This document shows, piece after piece, positions 2,628 through 55,691 of a stretch of DNA of 58,881 bases. The notes under the pieces are model-generated. The model saw only the letters and a program-made list of their open reading frames with translations. It did no database searches and was not told where the DNA came from. A program made the translations under genes and the position numbers. This DNA is from a virus. Numbering within the stretch: the first letter of the stretch is position 1; each line of letters begins with the position of its first letter. The stretch lies in the IMG/VR virus record IMGVR_UViG_3300036767_001238, positions 1 to 58,881 of that record. One strand, written 5' to 3'.

Positions 2628-5096
2628 TCATTGCTCCGCGATCAGGCCGTTGACCGCCGAAATGGCGGTCGTGACCGGTGTTTCGGTGTTGGCCACCCGT
2701 TGGAGGCCGTCGAAGGTGGAGCGGCCCGCCGAAGTCCCGACGTGCAGCAGATTGGTCTTGGGGTCGTGCGCCAGCGCCGTGACCGCATCCGAGGTGCCGA
2801 ACAGCGTGCATTTTGCGCCCGGCTGGAACAGCTTGCGCTCGTCCTCGTAGATTTTGGCGATTTGATCCGGGGCCGGGATCGTTTCTGTAATACGGAATAG
2901 AGAAAGCGACGCTGTCCCAACGGGATGGATGCGAAGCTCATGCAGATCCGACACGATCCCGTGATTCAGATACTGTGACATGAATTTGCCGTCTTGATAG
3001 TGGCGGAAATCACCACCCTCGAAGATCGCCACGTGCAGCGCCCACTGGCCGTTGTGCGGGGGACAATCCCCGCCAGCGTTTAGGCTGCGGCGTCCTTGCC
3101 AGATAAACCGTGGCTGTCCGGTTGTGCCGTCGAAGTAGAGGTTAAAGAATTGCGCGCTGGTGCCGCTACCTAAGGCCTCATGCCAACCGAAAACTTGTGA
3201 GGACGGGTTGCCTTTTGCCCAAAACACCATTGCGAAGGTCGATGCGCCAGAAAGAGAACCTTTGAAGTCTTTTCCCAAGAAATCGACATTGGTTACCATG
3301 TTGCCGTATGAGGCTAGCTCGGCTCCATCCGCTACAGCCTCGCGACGAACGGTTCCGTGCACAGTGAAGCCGCTATTGTTCACCGAGCGATCCGGGACCC
3401 CCGGCCGCACGGAAATATTGTCAAAATCCATGAAGTCCGACAGCGCGCCGGGTTGGAAATGGGTCTTAAGCGTGATGTAGGTCGTAGGACCAGTAGCCGT
3501 GAAGTAGGTTTCGTAAACGCCCACACCCACATTGGCGGGGTGATCGTATAGCTGCGTTCCGTTGGGTCCATAGCCGATCCGGAAGTCTGCCACCCCTCCA
3601 GTGCCACCGATGATTTCGAACTGAGCGCGGTATGTTTGGCCCATGACTGTGGGGACAGCTTGATAGATGTATGCGTTTCCGTAAACGCGAAGCGCACCAT
3701 CAATGACCTCCGCGTAGTCCGCATCACCACTGCCAGAAACCCAGCCGGTCATGTCTGTGTCAAACGTGCCGTTCGTGATCTGCTCCGACGAGACGAGAAC
3801 GGTTTGATCTATGCCGGCAAGCGCAGCCAACTTGATCTTTCCGGGCATCCAGCCTGTATTGTGTTGCGTCGAAATAAACGCAGCCATGCCATTTTCAGGA
3901 CTGTCAGGTTTCCTGCTGACAAGTCCGAGACCCAAGGCGCGAGCGGCTAGCATGTCGCCATAAGGAATTGCACCTTTGCCAATGTTGCCAAAAGCAGTCT
4001 TTGGGAATGCTAAATCACCAGACCAGGCACCGCCGGGATACCAGATATATCGCTCATCAGCCGCCTGGGAATTATAGTCAGCGCCAGCCCAGACCTCATC
4101 ACCGTATGGGATTTTGTGCACATTAACGACGCGGCTTGCAGCGGTGGAACTGTCCTGACCAATCAAAAGTCTGTCGCCAAAAAATGCAATCGAACCAGCG
4201 TTCATCGTGTAGACAGACGCAGTGATGTCCACGACCGTACCGCTGTCCTTGATCACAGAAACTCCGCCAGCGGTAGCTACTGCAATCGTTGGTATGGGAA
4301 GGCTTGTGGCCGGATCAACCGGGGCGTTGGGGAGGACAGTTATAGCGACGTCGTTTGCCGAAGGGTGAGCCAGGACAAACATTGATGGCGGACCAGAATA
4401 CGCGGGGAAAGCAACCGCATTTCTGAACTTCGCAATCAGCACGCTCAGTTTGTATGAACCTCCGCCGACCCCAATATAGGCTTCCTCACTGATGAAGTTT
4501 GCACGGCTAATGCTTCGAGATGAAGACGAGCCGACAAGCCAGCCATTTTGCATTGTTGCAGCAGTTATTGCCCCGCCGCCCGCGGTATTGAAAAACTTGT
4601 CACTACCGACGTCAAAAACCATCCACATAGGCAGCGCAGGATCATCTCCATCATAGATCGTGACCTTCGCAGCCTCAGCCACAATCACTGCAACGGCCGG
4701 GAACTCCCGGCGCGACCCACGAGTAGCAGTATTCAGGTTCTCGTTATACCAGCTCGTGTGCTGGCACCGCCTGCGCCATGCCCCGCCGTCGCTGTCGAGA
4801 CTCGTGTCGTAGACGAACACGTCCACGGCGGTTGCGGCTTTCTCGGCTAGGATCGCGCTTATGCCCTGATAGGTCACGTCGGCTTTCACGGTCGCAAGAT
4901 GGGTGGCGGCGTCAGTCGCGTTTGCGGCTGCTTCGCCCAGGTAGCCTTCGGTCGCCGCCAGCTCGGCCTGTGTGGAAATTATTTCAGCGTCTGCTTGGGA
5001 GACCTTCGCGTCCAGCTGCGACTTGGTGACGTTCGTCTCGCCGGTCAGCTGGTCTACCGAAATCGTCAGCTTCGAGATCGAGCTCATCAGTGTCAT
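2628..5096 (-). CDS. large tail fibre protein with LamG/CBM-like domains (paralogue 2)
   Basis: 822 residues starting at ATG 5096 after an AAGGA ribosome site. Residues 1-88 are heptad-like and Ala/Asp-rich, a likely coiled-coil anchor. Residues 91-162 form a module (VDVFVYDTSLDSDGGAWRRR onward) nearly identical to the same positions of the neighbour at 5164-7605. Middle residues include a CBM-like segment (NGTFDTDMTGW) and a concanavalin-A/LamG-like region before a conserved C-terminal module of about 80 residues (IYEDERKLFQ, LLHVGTSAGRS). The protein is probably a receptor-binding fibre recognising surface glycans. The central region differs strongly from its paralogue while both ends are conserved. 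Confidence 0.75.
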   Translation of the reverse strand: MTLMSSISKLTISVDQLTGETNVTKSQLDAKVSQADAEIISTQAELAATEGYLGEAAANATDAATHLATVKADVTYQGISAILAEKAATAVDVFVYDTSLDSDGGAWRRRCQHTSWYNENLNTATRGSRREFPAVAVIVAEAAKVTIYDGDDPALPMWMVFDVGSDKFFNTAGGGAITAATMQNGWLVGSSSSRSISRANFISEEAYIGVGGGSYKLSVLIAKFRNAVAFPAYSGPPSMFVLAHPSANDVAITVLPNAPVDPATSLPIPTIAVATAGGVSVIKDSGTVVDITASVYTMNAGSIAFFGDRLLIGQDSSTAASRVVNVHKIPYGDEVWAGADYNSQAADERYIWYPGGAWSGDLAFPKTAFGNIGKGAIPYGDMLAARALGLGLVSRKPDSPENGMAAFISTQHNTGWMPGKIKLAALAGIDQTVLVSSEQITNGTFDTDMTGWVSGSGDADYAEVIDGALRVYGNAYIYQAVPTVMGQTYRAQFEIIGGTGGVADFRIGYGPNGTQLYDHPANVGVGVYETYFTATGPTTYITLKTHFQPGALSDFMDFDNISVRPGVPDRSVNNSGFTVHGTVRREAVADGAELASYGNMVTNVDFLGKDFKGSLSGASTFAMVFWAKGNPSSQVFGWHEALGSGTSAQFFNLYFDGTTGQPRFIWQGRRSLNAGGDCPPHNGQWALHVAIFEGGDFRHYQDGKFMSQYLNHGIVSDLHELRIHPVGTASLSLFRITETIPAPDQIAKIYEDERKLFQPGAKCTLFGTSDAVTALAHDPKTNLLHVGTSAGRSTFDGLQRVANTETPVTTAISAVNGLIAEQ

Positions 5097-43936: not shown

Positions 43937-44135
43937 GACGAACCTCCCTCACGGCTGGCAGCTTGCCGTAAAGCTTCTCGCCCAGCTGGCGAACCAGTTC
44001 ACGTTCCGGCCAGGTGAGCCGATGATCGTCGAGCGAGACTGCCAGCATGTGCTGCTCATGCCAACCATCGCGCTTGACCTGTTCAGGGTCACGGCGATTG
44101 CCGCCGTAACCCTTGGGGGTGAACCGCATGCCCAT
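43926..44135 (-). CDS. small hypothetical phage protein
   Basis: 69 residues, basic, with the pattern MGMRFTPKGYGGNRRDPEQV and WPERELVRQLGEKLYG. The start shares one base with the stop of the RuvC-like gene (44135). No family recognised; it sits in the tightly packed resolvase/DUF6362 end of the early operon. Confidence 0.65.
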   Translation of the reverse strand: MGMRFTPKGYGGNRRDPEQVKRDGWHEQHMLAVSLDDHRLTWPERELVRQLGEKLYGKLPAVREVRHGR

Positions 44136-44656
44136 CAGGTCAGCCCTCCCTGCGTCTCAATCGCCCAGAGTAGGATGGCGATGGCATCCGCCTCGTTGTC
44201 ATCCGCTGGGCTGAAACCGTGCTTGCGGGCGGCATCGATCATGGCCTGCTTGTTCGCATTGCCGTGGCCGGTGGCGTGACGCTTGATGGTCCCCACCGGG
44301 ACGCCCTGGTAGGGCACCCCCCGCAGCTCTGCCCAAGCTGTCAGCGTGGCCATCAGACCACCGTAGACGTGGGCTGCGTCAGTGCCTGCGTGCCGACGGA
44401 CCTCTTCGAAGTAGATTGCCTCAATCGGACCGGGCAGGCGATCCATCTCGGACAGCCAGTTCGTGAAGCGCAGGTAGCGCATGCCGCCGCCATCGTAGCG
44501 GCCAGGCTTGAAACTGACGGTGCCGCTAGTGATGAGGCCATCGAAGCCGCGGATCGCCCAGCCGGTTGTCGTGCCGAGATCAAGGGCAAGGATGGTCTTT
44601 GCGCCGCCAAAAGTCTCAGGCAGCGTCGGGGGCGAGATCAGTTCATTTGTGTTCAT
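44135..44656 (-). CDS. RuvC-like Holliday junction resolvase
   Basis: 173 residues. The RNase H-fold acidic residues are visible: Asp26 (ILALDLGTTTGWA), Glu83/84 (IYFEEVRRH) and the C-terminal DDNEADA (151-156) ending in a helix. The fold and GTIKRHATGHGNANK segment match phage RuvC-like resolvases. It resolves branched DNA before packaging or after recombination. It is the first gene on the far side of the repeat array at 44765-45028. Confidence 0.88.
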   Translation of the reverse strand: MNTNELISPPTLPETFGGAKTILALDLGTTTGWAIRGFDGLITSGTVSFKPGRYDGGGMRYLRFTNWLSEMDRLPGPIEAIYFEEVRRHAGTDAAHVYGGLMATLTAWAELRGVPYQGVPVGTIKRHATGHGNANKQAMIDAARKHGFSPADDNEADAIAILLWAIETQGGLT

Positions 44657-44764: not shown

Positions 44765-44856
44765 GTCACCAACCTGTCACCAACCTCTCAGGGGGTTGGT
44801 GACAGGAATATCTCAACAAAAACAACGCTGTCACCAACGTCACCAACGTCACCAAC
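44765..44856. repeat. left iteron block, six GTCACCAAC copies
   Basis: Starts at 44765, 44776, 44795 (inverted), 44830, 44839 and 44848. The last three are exact head-to-tail tandem copies with 9-base period. Confidence 0.85.
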
Positions 44857-44939
44857 CAAATACTTTGTATGTATATGAAGATGGGTTCGGGAGGGGAAAA
44901 TACACGCATATATGGATAAGAGTAGAAGATCGCCGTTAG

Positions 44940-45028
44940 GTTGGTGACGTTGGTGACAGCATTGTTTCTAAACCATTTTTTCCGTCACCATCCTTCGGCG
45001 GGGTTGGTGACATGCGCAGGTTGGTGAC
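44940..45028. repeat. right iteron block, four GTTGGTGAC copies
   Basis: Starts at 44940, 44949 (tandem), 45003 and 45020, all in the orientation opposite to most of the left block. A GTCACCATC variant lies at 44984. Confidence 0.85.
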
Positions 45029-45059
45029 AAAATAAAGGGGCGCCCGGCCTGGACGCCCC
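45029..45059 (-). terminator. rho-independent terminator of the primase-helicase operon
   Basis: On the minus strand GGGGCG pairs with CGCCCC around 11 bases and is followed by TTTATTTT. It lies between the gene stop (45095) and the first iteron, insulating the repeat array from transcription. Confidence 0.7.
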
Positions 45060-45066
45060 CCCCCCC
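45056..45066. repeat. second 11-base C tract
   Basis: Eleven C in a row, forming G11 at the 5' side of the terminator stem on the minus strand. It lies outside any gene. Same length as the tract at 35740. Confidence 0.7.
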
Positions 45067-45094: not shown

Positions 45095-47659
45095 CTATTC
45101 GTTTGGCCTGCGATATCGCCATTCGCGTTCGCCACCTTCGCGACGCTGATAGCGCTCCCAGCCTTTCTTCTTGAGATACCCAGAGACCCGCATCTGATCC
45201 GTCCGCGACCATCGCGCCGGTTCAGCTCCTATGGCCTCTTCCAATATCTCACCTACGGACACATCTCGCAGCGGCTCGTGGCGCAGAACGCTCTCACGAC
45301 GGGGCGGATCGAAGGATGAATAGCTATCCCCCACAACGCGAAGCTCGTGCGTCAGCCAGTGCTCGATCAGCCCGTCCCACGCGTCGGACTGGTATCGCTT
45401 GTCCTGCTCTTCGCGCGCCGATTTCAGGAGCTCCTTGTCCTCGATCCACCAGATGGCGCCATCCTTGAACCGTGCCACGGCCTCGGCCCAGAGCTGGTCC
45501 CGGTCCCGCGCGAGAGCATCGATGTCGATGTCGCCGCAGCGGATTGGCCAAAAGCGGCGGTTACCGGTTTCATCGCGTAGATAAGTGTCCGGGTTCACCG
45601 TGCCGGCAAAGACGCATTGGCGTTTGATCTCGACCGTGTGGCGACCATAGGGTGGCCGGAACCGGTCCGTGGTGCGGGTCAGGAACGCCTTGATACGCGA
45701 AACCTCGGCGCGGCCGATGGCGTCCAATTCCGCGATTTCGACGATCCAGACACCTTGCATGTGGATGGCTGCATCCTTGGACCCGAGGTCTGGCAACTCG
45801 TCCGTGAACCAGTCCTCGCCTGCCAGTATCTTGAGGGCTGTGGATTTGCGCGCGCCCTGCTCGCCCTCGAGGATTAGCATGTGGTCGGCCTTCACACCCG
45901 GCCGATAGACACGCGCAATGGCAGATATCAGCCACAGGCTTCCCATGGCATGGGTCAATTCCGTGGGCTCAGCGCCCAGGTAGCGGCTGGCCCAGGTCTC
46001 GAGGCGACCTGTGCCGTCCCATTGCAGGTGGTCGAGATAGGCGCGCACCGGGTGAATGCGGTGGTCGCGGGCGACTGCGCCGACCGAGCGGCCAACAACG
46101 AGGGGCGCAACATTCACTTCCCGGTGCTGAAGCCATTCGGCCAGCCGGATGTCGTCGCTGTCCTCCCACGGCCGCGGATAGTCCGTGTTCTGCTCATCCC
46201 AAGGCACTGGCTGCAACACGACCACCTCCTGGCGGAAGTCATCAAAGGCGATAGTGCCTGCAAAGGCCGGATCGGAGCTCAGCGCAATGATGACATTGGC
46301 CTCGTTGCGCTCGGGCGTTCCCGAAAGATCAAGGCGCAGCCGGTTCGCCCAAGCCGGGCGGGCAGCGGGCTTCATAAGGTCGCCGGTGCTGTTCAAACGG
46401 CGGCGCAGAACGCTGAGTTGCTTATCTAGGATCGACATTGCAATCCCGGTGCGCGCCTTGATCAGCGACAGCACATGGCGTTCTTCCATGGGCTCGAGCC
46501 GCGCCTTGACGATGCGCCCCATAAGGGTGCCCAACTCGGCGAGATCGGGCGGATTGGTGAGCCCCTCGGTTGCGGTGGCCAGCGCGTCGGCGGCAGGCTC
46601 CAGATCTGTGGCAGGCTTCGTCACGCCGCTGTCATCGCGCAAGAGCTTGCCCTCGGGGGTCGTTATTTGACTGCCGTAATCCGTCTTAACGGCCCCCCGC
46701 AGAAGATCGTCGTTGAAATCATCGCCATGGAGCGGGGCAATCACCTCGTTTGGGATGTCCGCCATGTTCAACCGGTCTGACAATGTTGCGGCCGCCTGAC
46801 GCCCTACCTCGCCCGCATCGGCAAAGATCGTGACGCGGCGTGTGCACTGAGGCCATTTGAACCTTGCTATGCCATCGGCCGATAAGGCCGCCCACACAGG
46901 TTTTCCAAAGATCGCGGCAGCCGCGAGCGCCGTCTCGATCCCCTCGGCCACACCCAGATGACCATCTTCAGGCAGCGGAAAGAGCCGCACCGCCGCTTCT
47001 GCGATCGTGCCCAACATCTTCTTGCCCGCAGGTGCCTTGCCGCTTCCGTCGTCCATGAGGAAGGTGCGATGGATGCCCCCGACTGGATCACCATTTGCCA
47101 GGCGCGGGATCGCCACCATGCCGGGCCAGCCACGTCGACTGTCGTAATCTGTGAGGTCAGGGTGAAACAGGAGATCCGGCGAGCCCGGATCTCTCAGCCC
47201 CCGCGACTGGAGATACGTTTCGGCAAGGCTTCCGGCCAGAGGCACGCACCCGTCCAGAATGCGGCGAATTTCAAGGCTGTGATCAGGGCGCGCTGGCGAA
47301 GCCGGTCGTGCTGGCAAGTCACGCTCCAGGCGAGCCAGACGGGCCGCCTCATCAAAGAGGCGCCCTTCGCTCATGCCCGTGGCGTGGTAGATCATGTCGA
47401 TTGGCCCCGCACGTTCGCCCGTCGCAAAATCGAAGCCCCAGCCTGCATAGGGCCCATCAAGATGGATGACACACGAGCCCTCACCGCGGGAACGGCGCCC
47501 GGAGAGGTCGGCGCACCGCATCGCGCGTTTATCATGGGTAAGCTTTGCCTCCGGGAAGAGAGGGGGCAGCCAATCGCGGGCCGTGGCCGCGAGCCGCGCC
47601 TTGATAGCGGTCAAGTCATGTCGGGCGGTGGGGATGAAGACATCGTTGAGGTCGATCAC
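45095..47659 (-). CDS. TOPRIM primase fused to VapE/DUF5906-type helicase
   Basis: 854 residues from GTG 47659, chosen because GAGG precedes it and the longer frame overlaps the upstream gene. The N-terminal half is a primase with an AEGIETALAA TOPRIM signature at about residue 238. The C-terminal half is a VirE/VapE-like ATPase: Walker A LEGEQGARKST near 597-607, preceded by HPVRAYLDHLQWDGTGRLET, and followed by the conserved GTVNPDTYLRDETGNRRFWP. It should open and copy the phage origin. The iteron array sits directly after its stop. Confidence 0.9.
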   Translation of the reverse strand: MIDLNDVFIPTARHDLTAIKARLAATARDWLPPLFPEAKLTHDKRAMRCADLSGRRSRGEGSCVIHLDGPYAGWGFDFATGERAGPIDMIYHATGMSEGRLFDEAARLARLERDLPARPASPARPDHSLEIRRILDGCVPLAGSLAETYLQSRGLRDPGSPDLLFHPDLTDYDSRRGWPGMVAIPRLANGDPVGGIHRTFLMDDGSGKAPAGKKMLGTIAEAAVRLFPLPEDGHLGVAEGIETALAAAAIFGKPVWAALSADGIARFKWPQCTRRVTIFADAGEVGRQAAATLSDRLNMADIPNEVIAPLHGDDFNDDLLRGAVKTDYGSQITTPEGKLLRDDSGVTKPATDLEPAADALATATEGLTNPPDLAELGTLMGRIVKARLEPMEERHVLSLIKARTGIAMSILDKQLSVLRRRLNSTGDLMKPAARPAWANRLRLDLSGTPERNEANVIIALSSDPAFAGTIAFDDFRQEVVVLQPVPWDEQNTDYPRPWEDSDDIRLAEWLQHREVNVAPLVVGRSVGAVARDHRIHPVRAYLDHLQWDGTGRLETWASRYLGAEPTELTHAMGSLWLISAIARVYRPGVKADHMLILEGEQGARKSTALKILAGEDWFTDELPDLGSKDAAIHMQGVWIVEIAELDAIGRAEVSRIKAFLTRTTDRFRPPYGRHTVEIKRQCVFAGTVNPDTYLRDETGNRRFWPIRCGDIDIDALARDRDQLWAEAVARFKDGAIWWIEDKELLKSAREEQDKRYQSDAWDGLIEHWLTHELRVVGDSYSSFDPPRRESVLRHEPLRDVSVGEILEEAIGAEPARWSRTDQMRVSGYLKKKGWERYQRREGGEREWRYRRPNE

Positions 47660-47669
47660 GGGCCATACC

Positions 47670-48989
47670 TCATGCAAGCAGCACAAGGCCGCGCTCCGCG
47701 CGGGTGATCGCGGTGTAGAGCCATCGGCGGCGGTCAAGCTCGCTGCGACCAAGCCCATCATCCCAGACGATCACATTCTCCCACTGCGATCCTTGCGCCT
47801 TGTGCGCGGTGATCGCCCAACCAAACGTCGCCTCGATCAGATGCTTTTTCTCCTTCCAATCCCGATCATGGCGCGTGCGATCAAAATCGATATGGTCCTC
47901 AAAATGTCCCTTGTAGATGCGCAGACGGCCAGGTTTGCCATTGGGGTGAGGCGTTCCCACCTCACGGCCGTCCTCGTCCGTCACCACGGCCGAGAAGTAG
48001 AGGCTGCCCTCGTCCACGATCTCTTCGAGCGTTAGGAACATGCCATTGATCAACCCGAGGTCATTCTGGTTCTTCAGGCAGATGATCTTCTCGGCAGCTC
48101 CTGACGGCAGGACGCCACCGGCCAGACCGGCCGCCTCGCGCATGGCATTGTTCAACTGCAGCCGCGTCGCGTTCATGCCGCAAATCAGCTGCCCGCCGCG
48201 TAGCGCCTGATCGGGTGTGATATCGGCCTTGTGCATCTTGGCGACATGGTCGTCATAGCTGCCGAAGCCAATCGGCTGGCCCTCGCGCGCCATGGTGGCC
48301 AGACGGATGATGGCGCTCTCGGATGCCTGTCGGTGAATTTCGGTCAACATCACATCCGGAGCGACGTTGGTGAACGCCCCGTTTCCCTTGATCGGGGGAA
48401 GCTGACCGGGATCACCCAGCACAAGGATGGGTTTCTTGAAGCTCATCAAATCCCGCGCCATCTCCTCGCCCACCATGGACACCTCATCAAGCACGATCAG
48501 TTTGGCGTCGGCGGCATCGCTTTGTGTGTTCAGCGCAAAGCGGGGCTTTTTCATCGCCGATAGCGCCTGGCGCATTGCCTCAATTCCAGCCTCCGCCGCT
48601 GTCCGATCGAACCCGGACAAAGATCTGACGCTGATTTCTGCCTCGCGCACTTTCTGCGCTACCGCTGCGATTTCCTCTTCTGTGGCCTCCGACACAGAAT
48701 AAATCAGACTGTGAATGGTGCGCGCAGGCGTGCCCTTTCGACTCAAGACCAGCGCGGCCTTGCCTGTGAAGGTAGCGGTGACGACGCCCGGCACGCAGGT
48801 GCCTTCGCGGGCGCTCCGGTGTGGCGAAAGGCCCAGTTCATCAAGTGCAAACTTCAGCACGGTAGATTTTCCGCTTCCCGCGTAGCCAAAAAGCCGGAAA
48901 ACCTGCTGCTCATGGGTTCGGGTTTCAAACCAAGACTTGATCGCGCGGATGGCAGCCGCCTGACTATTGGAGGGCGTGAAACTGGTCAT
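47670..48989 (-). CDS. RecD/Dda-type superfamily 1 DNA helicase
   Basis: 439 residues from ATG 48989 (AAGGGA upstream, ATGA overlap with the previous gene). Walker A GYAGSGKST at 35-43, Walker B LIVLDEVSMVG, then GDPGQLPPIKG and the C-terminal motifs GWAITAHKAQGSQW and YTAITRAERGL. It resembles T4 Dda/RecD2. It probably acts in phage DNA replication or recombination with the primase-helicase encoded next. Confidence 0.9.
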   Translation of the reverse strand: MTSFTPSNSQAAAIRAIKSWFETRTHEQQVFRLFGYAGSGKSTVLKFALDELGLSPHRSAREGTCVPGVVTATFTGKAALVLSRKGTPARTIHSLIYSVSEATEEEIAAVAQKVREAEISVRSLSGFDRTAAEAGIEAMRQALSAMKKPRFALNTQSDAADAKLIVLDEVSMVGEEMARDLMSFKKPILVLGDPGQLPPIKGNGAFTNVAPDVMLTEIHRQASESAIIRLATMAREGQPIGFGSYDDHVAKMHKADITPDQALRGGQLICGMNATRLQLNNAMREAAGLAGGVLPSGAAEKIICLKNQNDLGLINGMFLTLEEIVDEGSLYFSAVVTDEDGREVGTPHPNGKPGRLRIYKGHFEDHIDFDRTRHDRDWKEKKHLIEATFGWAITAHKAQGSQWENVIVWDDGLGRSELDRRRWLYTAITRAERGLVLLA

Positions 48990-55016: not shown

Positions 55017-55691
55017 ATGATCGTCACCAACATCGCACAGCGCCTGAAGGCCCGCGCGTTCCAGCTCGACATGACGCCCGCGGCTGTGGCCGAGGCTTCA
55101 GGTCTGAACCGTTCCTTCATCTACGACATCATCCGCGGTAAGTCTGTGCGGCCGAGCCGTGCCAAGCTGCAGAAGGTTGCAGACGTCTTGAAGGTCGATG
55201 TTGACTGGCTGATCGACGGTGATGGGACGATAGAGGGCGAAGCCCCTAAGATCTATTCTCCGGACACGACCTTCGTCGGCATTTCCGGCGTCAAGGCAAA
55301 GGCTTCTGGGGGTGGCGGCACAATCGTGCATGCCGAGGACGAGCAAGCCAGCAAGCTCTATCATTTTAGGCTGTCCTGGATTGAAGATGAGTTGGAGGCC
55401 AACCCGAAAAACCTGAGGATCCTGCGCGTCACTGGGGACAGCATGGTGCCCACATTGAATGAGGGCGACACAATCCTGGTCGATATGGGGCGCAAGTCAC
55501 CCTATCCGCCAGGGCTTTTCGTATTGCATGACGGCATGGGGCTGATGGCCAAACGGATCGAGCACATTCCGTCCAGCGACCCACCACGCATTCGCGTCAC
55601 TTCCGACAATCCCAACTACTCGCCCTATGACTGCCTTCTCGATGAGGTCAACATCGTTGGGCGGATTCGCTGGTACGGCCGCCGGGTCTAA
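55017..55691 (+). CDS. CI/LexA-type phage repressor (HTH + S24 peptidase fold)
   Basis: 224 residues. Helix-turn-helix at 17-38 (TPAAVAEASGLNRSFIYDII). The S24 domain has Ser142 in VTGDSMVPTL and Lys179 in LMAKRIEH, the standard autocleavage dyad. A clear Ala-Gly cleavage bond is not seen in the linker (residues 90-105 read VKAKASGGGGTIV), so RecA-driven induction may be lost or use another bond. It keeps the lytic genes silent. Confidence 0.9.
   Translation: MIVTNIAQRLKARAFQLDMTPAAVAEASGLNRSFIYDIIRGKSVRPSRAKLQKVADVLKVDVDWLIDGDGTIEGEAPKIYSPDTTFVGISGVKAKASGGGGTIVHAEDEQASKLYHFRLSWIEDELEANPKNLRILRVTGDSMVPTLNEGDTILVDMGRKSPYPPGLFVLHDGMGLMAKRIEHIPSSDPPRIRVTSDNPNYSPYDCLLDEVNIVGRIRWYGRRV

Follow-up and report, generated by a model that had tools for sequence, protein, structure and literature searches.

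An iteron array with mirrored arms, very probably the replication origin of a tailed prophage, changes in step with the predicted DNA-reading domain of a TOPRIM-VapE primase-helicase

The alpha protein of satellite phage P4 is a primase-helicase that binds its origin through a C-terminal winged-helix domain, and the iterons of P4 ori/crr are arranged in two blocks. The Rep/PriRep proteins of Staphylococcus pathogenicity islands (SaPIs), which are satellites with archaeo-eukaryotic primases (PMC7581432), are described in the passage of that paper citing Ubeda 2007 as self-loading helicases that recognise iterons downstream of their own gene through the C-terminal domain, apparently in the form of two hexamers. 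In the staphylococcal cassette chromosome mec (SCCmec), the C-terminal domain of the helicase Cch2 binds AAGTG direct repeats in the intergenic region downstream of its own gene (PMC7581432). In geminiviruses, a base of the iteron GGNGTCC varies with the X3 residue of the iteron-related domain (IRD) of Rep (PMC2974675). The locus described here is a repeat array at 44765–45028 (no strand assigned) of IMG/VR virus record IMGVR_UViG_3300036767_001238, positions 1 to 58,881; this whole 58,881-nucleotide stretch is called the window below. The array is very probably the replication origin of the prophage represented by the window, with the TOPRIM-VapE primase-helicase encoded at 45095–47659 as its initiator, because the repeat changes in step with single residues of the predicted DNA-reading domain of VapE across ~150 related phages.

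The locus resembles a SaPI Rep origin in three respects. Its helicase family is related to that of PriRep1, which, in complex with double-stranded DNA, was the only PDB relative found by sequence (7PDS, E 3.5e-61, residues 432–766, VapE-family profile); multiple iterons surround an AT-richer core; and the C-terminal domain of the helicase, judged by co-variation, appears to recognise the iterons. The first-pass annotation had placed the array 3' of rep on the SaPI plan. This holds for the window, where the array begins 66 bp beyond the VapE stop at 45095, and for 76 of 127 loci, but in the remaining 51 VapE is 1.1–6.4 kb off, and the conserved place is 5' of a RuvC-like resolvase gene, the fixed neighbour of the array (44135–44656, minus strand, 108 bp downstream in the window). 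Unlike the SaPI enzymes, the window primase is of the TOPRIM type and not archaeo-eukaryotic. By open reading frame (ORF) reading, the window is a tailed prophage in a 3.19-Mb genome, and it was not classed as a SaPI because it has its own large terminase, portal, sheath and baseplate-like genes, whereas a SaPI is a satellite borrowing the particle of its helper. P4 differs in element, iteron and primase. Cch2 has only three 5-nt iterons and a separate primase, and no mirrored arms are described for it in PMC7581432. Geminivirus Rep is a rolling-circle initiator unrelated to VapE, the sole shared idea being a natural initiator–iteron code. The literature searched, the coverage of which was incomplete, yielded no previous account of an origin of this type; the only parallels there were SaPI/SCCmec and the geminiviruses.

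The nonamer GTCACCAAC occurs ten times without error within 264 bp, compared to 0.45 copies expected in the whole 58.9-kb window, and 0 of 100 shuffles reached 11 copies. The left arm (44765–44856) contains six iterons, five on the plus strand (44765, 44776, 44830, 44839 and 44848) and one on the minus strand (44795), of which those at 44830, 44839 and 44848 are exact tandem copies in 9-bp steps. The right arm (44940–45028) contains four, all on the minus strand (44940, 44949, 45003 and 45020). Between the arms lies a repeat-free core of 83 bp (44857–44939), a candidate melting region with a guanine-plus-cytosine (GC) content of 0.40 versus ~0.60 in the surrounding sequence. The ten exact copies, their split into blocks of six and four, the three tandems and the 83-bp AT-rich core agree with the first-pass annotation, as does the placement of the array beside the 3' end of the VapE gene with a terminator-like hairpin between them (45034–45062, minus strand, identified by consensus match only; two such hairpins were found in the region versus 0.7 expected). 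A further copy with one mismatch, GTCACCATC, at 44984–44992 on the plus strand, had been overlooked; it mirrors the reversed site at 44795. With this copy included, the array is a dyad of six sites, the core and five sites, reading <<><< core >>><>> on the VapE strand with spacings of 17, 18, 36, 9, (core), 9, 9, 36, 18 and 11. The 3.19-Mb genome contains 51 copies of the nonamer, those outside the array being dispersed and mostly single, and no other cluster was found across it. An eleventh exact copy in the window, at 55023–55031, falls in the first codons of an S24 repressor gene and is near chance expectation. A DnaA-box-like TTATCCATA on the minus strand of the core was considered and rejected, being common to the window and locus L005 and absent from others such as L003.

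Conservation was assessed in 80 viral contigs and 80 genome contigs with VapE relatives and in 80 viral contigs with RuvC relatives. Genomes with VapE relatives included those of Rhodobacterales, those of other Alphaproteobacteria and 16 further ones from the family to which the window belongs. A class-level genome scan yielded only distant VapE proteins. Of 131 loci in which VapE (at least 50% identity) occurs together with a RuvC-like gene, 126 carried an array, defined as six or more repeats; the array is thus not absent beside homologous primase-helicase genes. The relatives keep the arms (for example <<><< core >>><>>) and the core length though the iteron sequence varies, with versions including GTTGGTGAC, GTGGTGAC, GTTGGGAC, GTGGGAC, GTTGGAC, GTAGGGAC, GTGGGAAC and others. 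The core is mostly 80–87 bp long and its GC content is below that of its own locus in 81 of 82 cases. The array usually ends ~100–180 bp ahead of RuvC, with a distance of 370–400 bp in L065 and L068, and L062 has both array and RuvC inverted as one. None of the 66 RuvC loci without VapE has three or more VapE-type iterons. The earlier proposal of a phage origin with its initiator encoded beside it is supported by this conservation and by co-variation with the 45095–47659 protein, with the amendment that the VapE family has no single repeat sequence; the repeat changes with the predicted recognition residues of the initiator.

To describe this co-variation, the iteron was compared column by column with five phage proteins (VapE, RuvC, the Dda-like helicase, the Cas4-like exonuclease and DUF6362), with 115 distinct VapE proteins scored and a tree built from VapE residues 1–780 (the N-terminus) only. 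Residue 872 was Q with an iteron centre of GGTG in 33 of 33 cases and R or K with GGG or GGA, lacking the T, in 81 of 81, with one gap (mutual information over entropy, MI/H, 1.00). The next-best columns for the T in GGTGAC reached 0.53 elsewhere in VapE, 0.39 in RuvC, 0.39 in Dda, 0.47 in Cas4 and 0.54 in DUF6362. On the VapE tree the T trait switches 15 times, and on each of those branches residue 872 switches too (15/15); among 4067 residue characters from the five proteins, Q872 had an overlap of 1.00, compared to 0.30 for the next distinct position, and the best RuvC character shared 5 of the 15 switches. For base 3, the best columns were R853 (0.70) and S860 (0.67) of VapE, versus 0.32–0.34 for RuvC, Dda and Cas4 and 0.38 for DUF6362. 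Base 3 and residue 853 (R/K) switch 20 and 22 times, with 18 switches coinciding, and the leading characters for this base (853, 860, 866, 862 and 865) all lie within or just past the predicted recognition helix.

The co-variation points to the 45095–47659 protein as the binder of the array. RuvC, the Dda-like helicase, the Cas4-like protein and DUF6362 were ruled out as binder, since none shows co-variation comparable to that of VapE. Mere linkage of the array to the VapE C-terminus was likewise rejected as an explanation, because the 872 rule holds in the 51 loci with an array 1.1–6.4 kb from VapE and because mainly helix and wing residues follow the iteron. The near pair L066/L068 shares 96% of the N-terminus and 92% of the C-terminus, yet the iterons are GTGGTGAC and GTGGGAC.

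The 872 rule was fixed beforehand and scored by automatic count on 41 new distinct VapE C-termini, held out from the training set but from relatives of it and not from a separate family; 39 of the 41 agreed. The automatic array finder took the wrong repeat in L308 and L295, both of which were then read by eye. Of the two misses, L308 agrees upon such reading and L337 is undecidable, having no RuvC-side array in the sequence available. L326 and L336 are among the 39 that agreed, but neither yielded an array, and they therefore carry little weight. Among divergent proteins, the VapE of Pseudomonas phage Haddon (~38% identity; K853, G860, R872) fits, with GTGGGAC/GTAGGAC iterons in similar arms, and Pseudomonas phage U5, with the same three residues, likewise has GTGGGAC/GTAGGAC iterons. 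A Roseomonas plasmid VapE (R853, K872) also fits, with the iteron GTTGGGGC.

The VapE ORF (45095–47761, minus strand) encodes 888 residues, or 854 from the likely start at 47659, and contains DUF7146, Toprim_3 and VapE domains followed by a predicted C-terminal winged helix. An AlphaFold model of residues 777–888 (45098–45433, minus strand) predicts this winged helix with a mean predicted local distance difference test (pLDDT) score of 81, rising to ~88–93 in the helix-wing part. In the model, residues 853–865 (45167–45205, minus strand) are helical and form the predicted recognition helix, in which R853 (45203–45205) and S860 (45182–45184) track base 3 of the iteron. Residues 869–875 and 878–884 form the two predicted wing strands (869–884; 45110–45157, minus strand), in which Q872 (45146–45148) tracks the T in GGTGAC. 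The co-varying residues thus map onto the modelled recognition helix and wing.

From the array, its mirror geometry, conservation and position, and the co-variation, we infer binding, a double hexamer, melting, firing and direction. The C-terminal winged helix of VapE would bind each iteron (GTTGGTGAC on the other strand), with the recognition helix (853, 860) reading base 3 and the wing (872) reading the iteron centre. Copies of VapE would load on the two mirrored arms, probably as two face-to-face helicase hexamers, and the two rings facing the core would melt the AT-richer 83 bp; the TOPRIM part of the same protein would prime. The near-fixed length of the core despite its changed sequence argues for contact across it.

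Several observations weigh against this reading. The co-variation, as a sequence pattern, speaks for binding and not for a start of replication at the array, and GC skew displays no clear turn there. The mean core GC content in relatives is 0.48, which is only moderately AT-rich. The 872 rule is broken by the distant Marinobacter phage PS3, in which the residue aligns as R and the iteron is GGGGTGACC. For base 3, L044 and L192 combine K853 with T, L257 and L274 combine R853 with A (GTAGGAC), and the rule is relaxed or mixed in L293 and L299. The full-length VapE model was too poor to use (pLDDT 68), and iteron contacts were therefore not modelled on DNA. Comparison of the C-terminal model with PriRep1 by Foldseek gave a weak match (E 0.23), and other matches were weak too.

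The alternative that survives best, although unlikely, is that VapE binds the array as a control site, for copy control or as an operator for RuvC or late genes, while replication starts elsewhere. Nearly all loci do have the array upstream of RuvC, and a weak promoter-like match (44834–44807) overlaps the array in the window. However, mirrored arms, an AT-richer core of near-fixed length, 10–12 sites and a helicase as the binder are origin requirements, the array stands 370–400 bp from RuvC in L065 and L068, and no second array of the GTCACCAAC iteron was found in the window. It is highly improbable that the array belongs to the RuvC-like resolvase as a binding or recombination site. The best RuvC column explains only 0.39 of the T variation, its best character follows only a third of the switches, and these iterons are absent from the RuvC loci that lack VapE, several of which carry other arrays beside other initiators; these results outweigh the constant neighbourhood of RuvC and its joint inversion with the array in L062. 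Repeat arrays serve also as centromeres and packaging sites, but a partition, packaging or other structural repeat with no tie to replication has just as slim a chance here, given that the co-varying protein is a primase-helicase and that the array lies inside a replication module comprising the Dda-like helicase, the Cas4-like exonuclease, a Sak4-like protein, RuvC and VapE. Least probable of all is that the S24/CI-like repressor (55017–55691) uses the repeats as its operators, since the extra copy at the start of that gene (55023) is near chance at 0.45 expected per window, the residue-base code follows VapE, and an operator region does not look like ten copies lying 10 kb from its repressor.

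Read as the origin initiated by VapE, an anonymous repeat array would become an origin whose initiator is identified and which has a residue-to-base code readable from sequence. In uncultured phages and plasmids, origins and initiators could be matched and origin compatibility predicted. Naturally occurring near-identical pairs whose iterons differ (L066/L068 and L069/L071) would make origin finding by a self-loading primase-helicase testable via single substitutions.

Beyond the replication module and the structural genes, the window also encodes a serine recombinase in addition to the S24/CI-like repressor.

RuvC relatives without VapE have other upstream repeats (e.g. AAATCTGG and TTGAAAGA) after other large proteins of the AAA_25 or Prim-Pol-DUF3987 type, as though phages generally kept an origin in the position ahead of RuvC. 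In L084, L085, L093, L102, L116 and L119, the phage has a RuvC-like gene without VapE, and a large primase/helicase gene lies upstream, often with another repeat array. Tentatively, a primase-helicase initiator, an iteron array and a RuvC-like resolvase may form an exchangeable origin cassette general to alphaproteobacterial phages. In it, VapE, AAA_25-type and Prim-Pol-DUF3987 initiators would each bring their own iterons, the VapE winged helix would have a readable residue-to-base code, and the resolvase would have a functional link to the origin, for instance at the change from replication fired at the origin to replication driven by recombination.

Proteins sharing the TOPRIM half (41–42% identity) were found in L086, L091, L092 and L111, those of L086 and L091 being without a VapE domain in Pfam. 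These loci have other iterons (AGGTCCCC, GGTTCACA and GGCTCACA) arranged in much the same mirrored geometry around a shorter core. A second array with a different repeat (GGAGTCCA/GGACTCC type) was observed downstream of the replication module in L050 (8208–8478), L033 (9474–9717), L055 (7477–7778), L007 (8442–8569) and L347 (6326–6664), and the corresponding repeat in Acidithiobacillus phage AcaML1 is GGTTTCCA. In several cases this second array, which was not found in the window, lies directly ahead of a DNA methylase gene. In Podovirus ctype202 (L349, 327–620), ten GGTAGTA repeats lie directly ahead of a RuvC-like gene. An array after VapE looks general from two plasmid cases: in a Staphylococcus aureus plasmid (L346) the VapE gene, ending at 3407, is followed by seven TGATGCAA repeats, and in a Komagataeibacter plasmid (L345) the VapE gene, ending at 4700, is followed by twelve copies of GGTGGCA.
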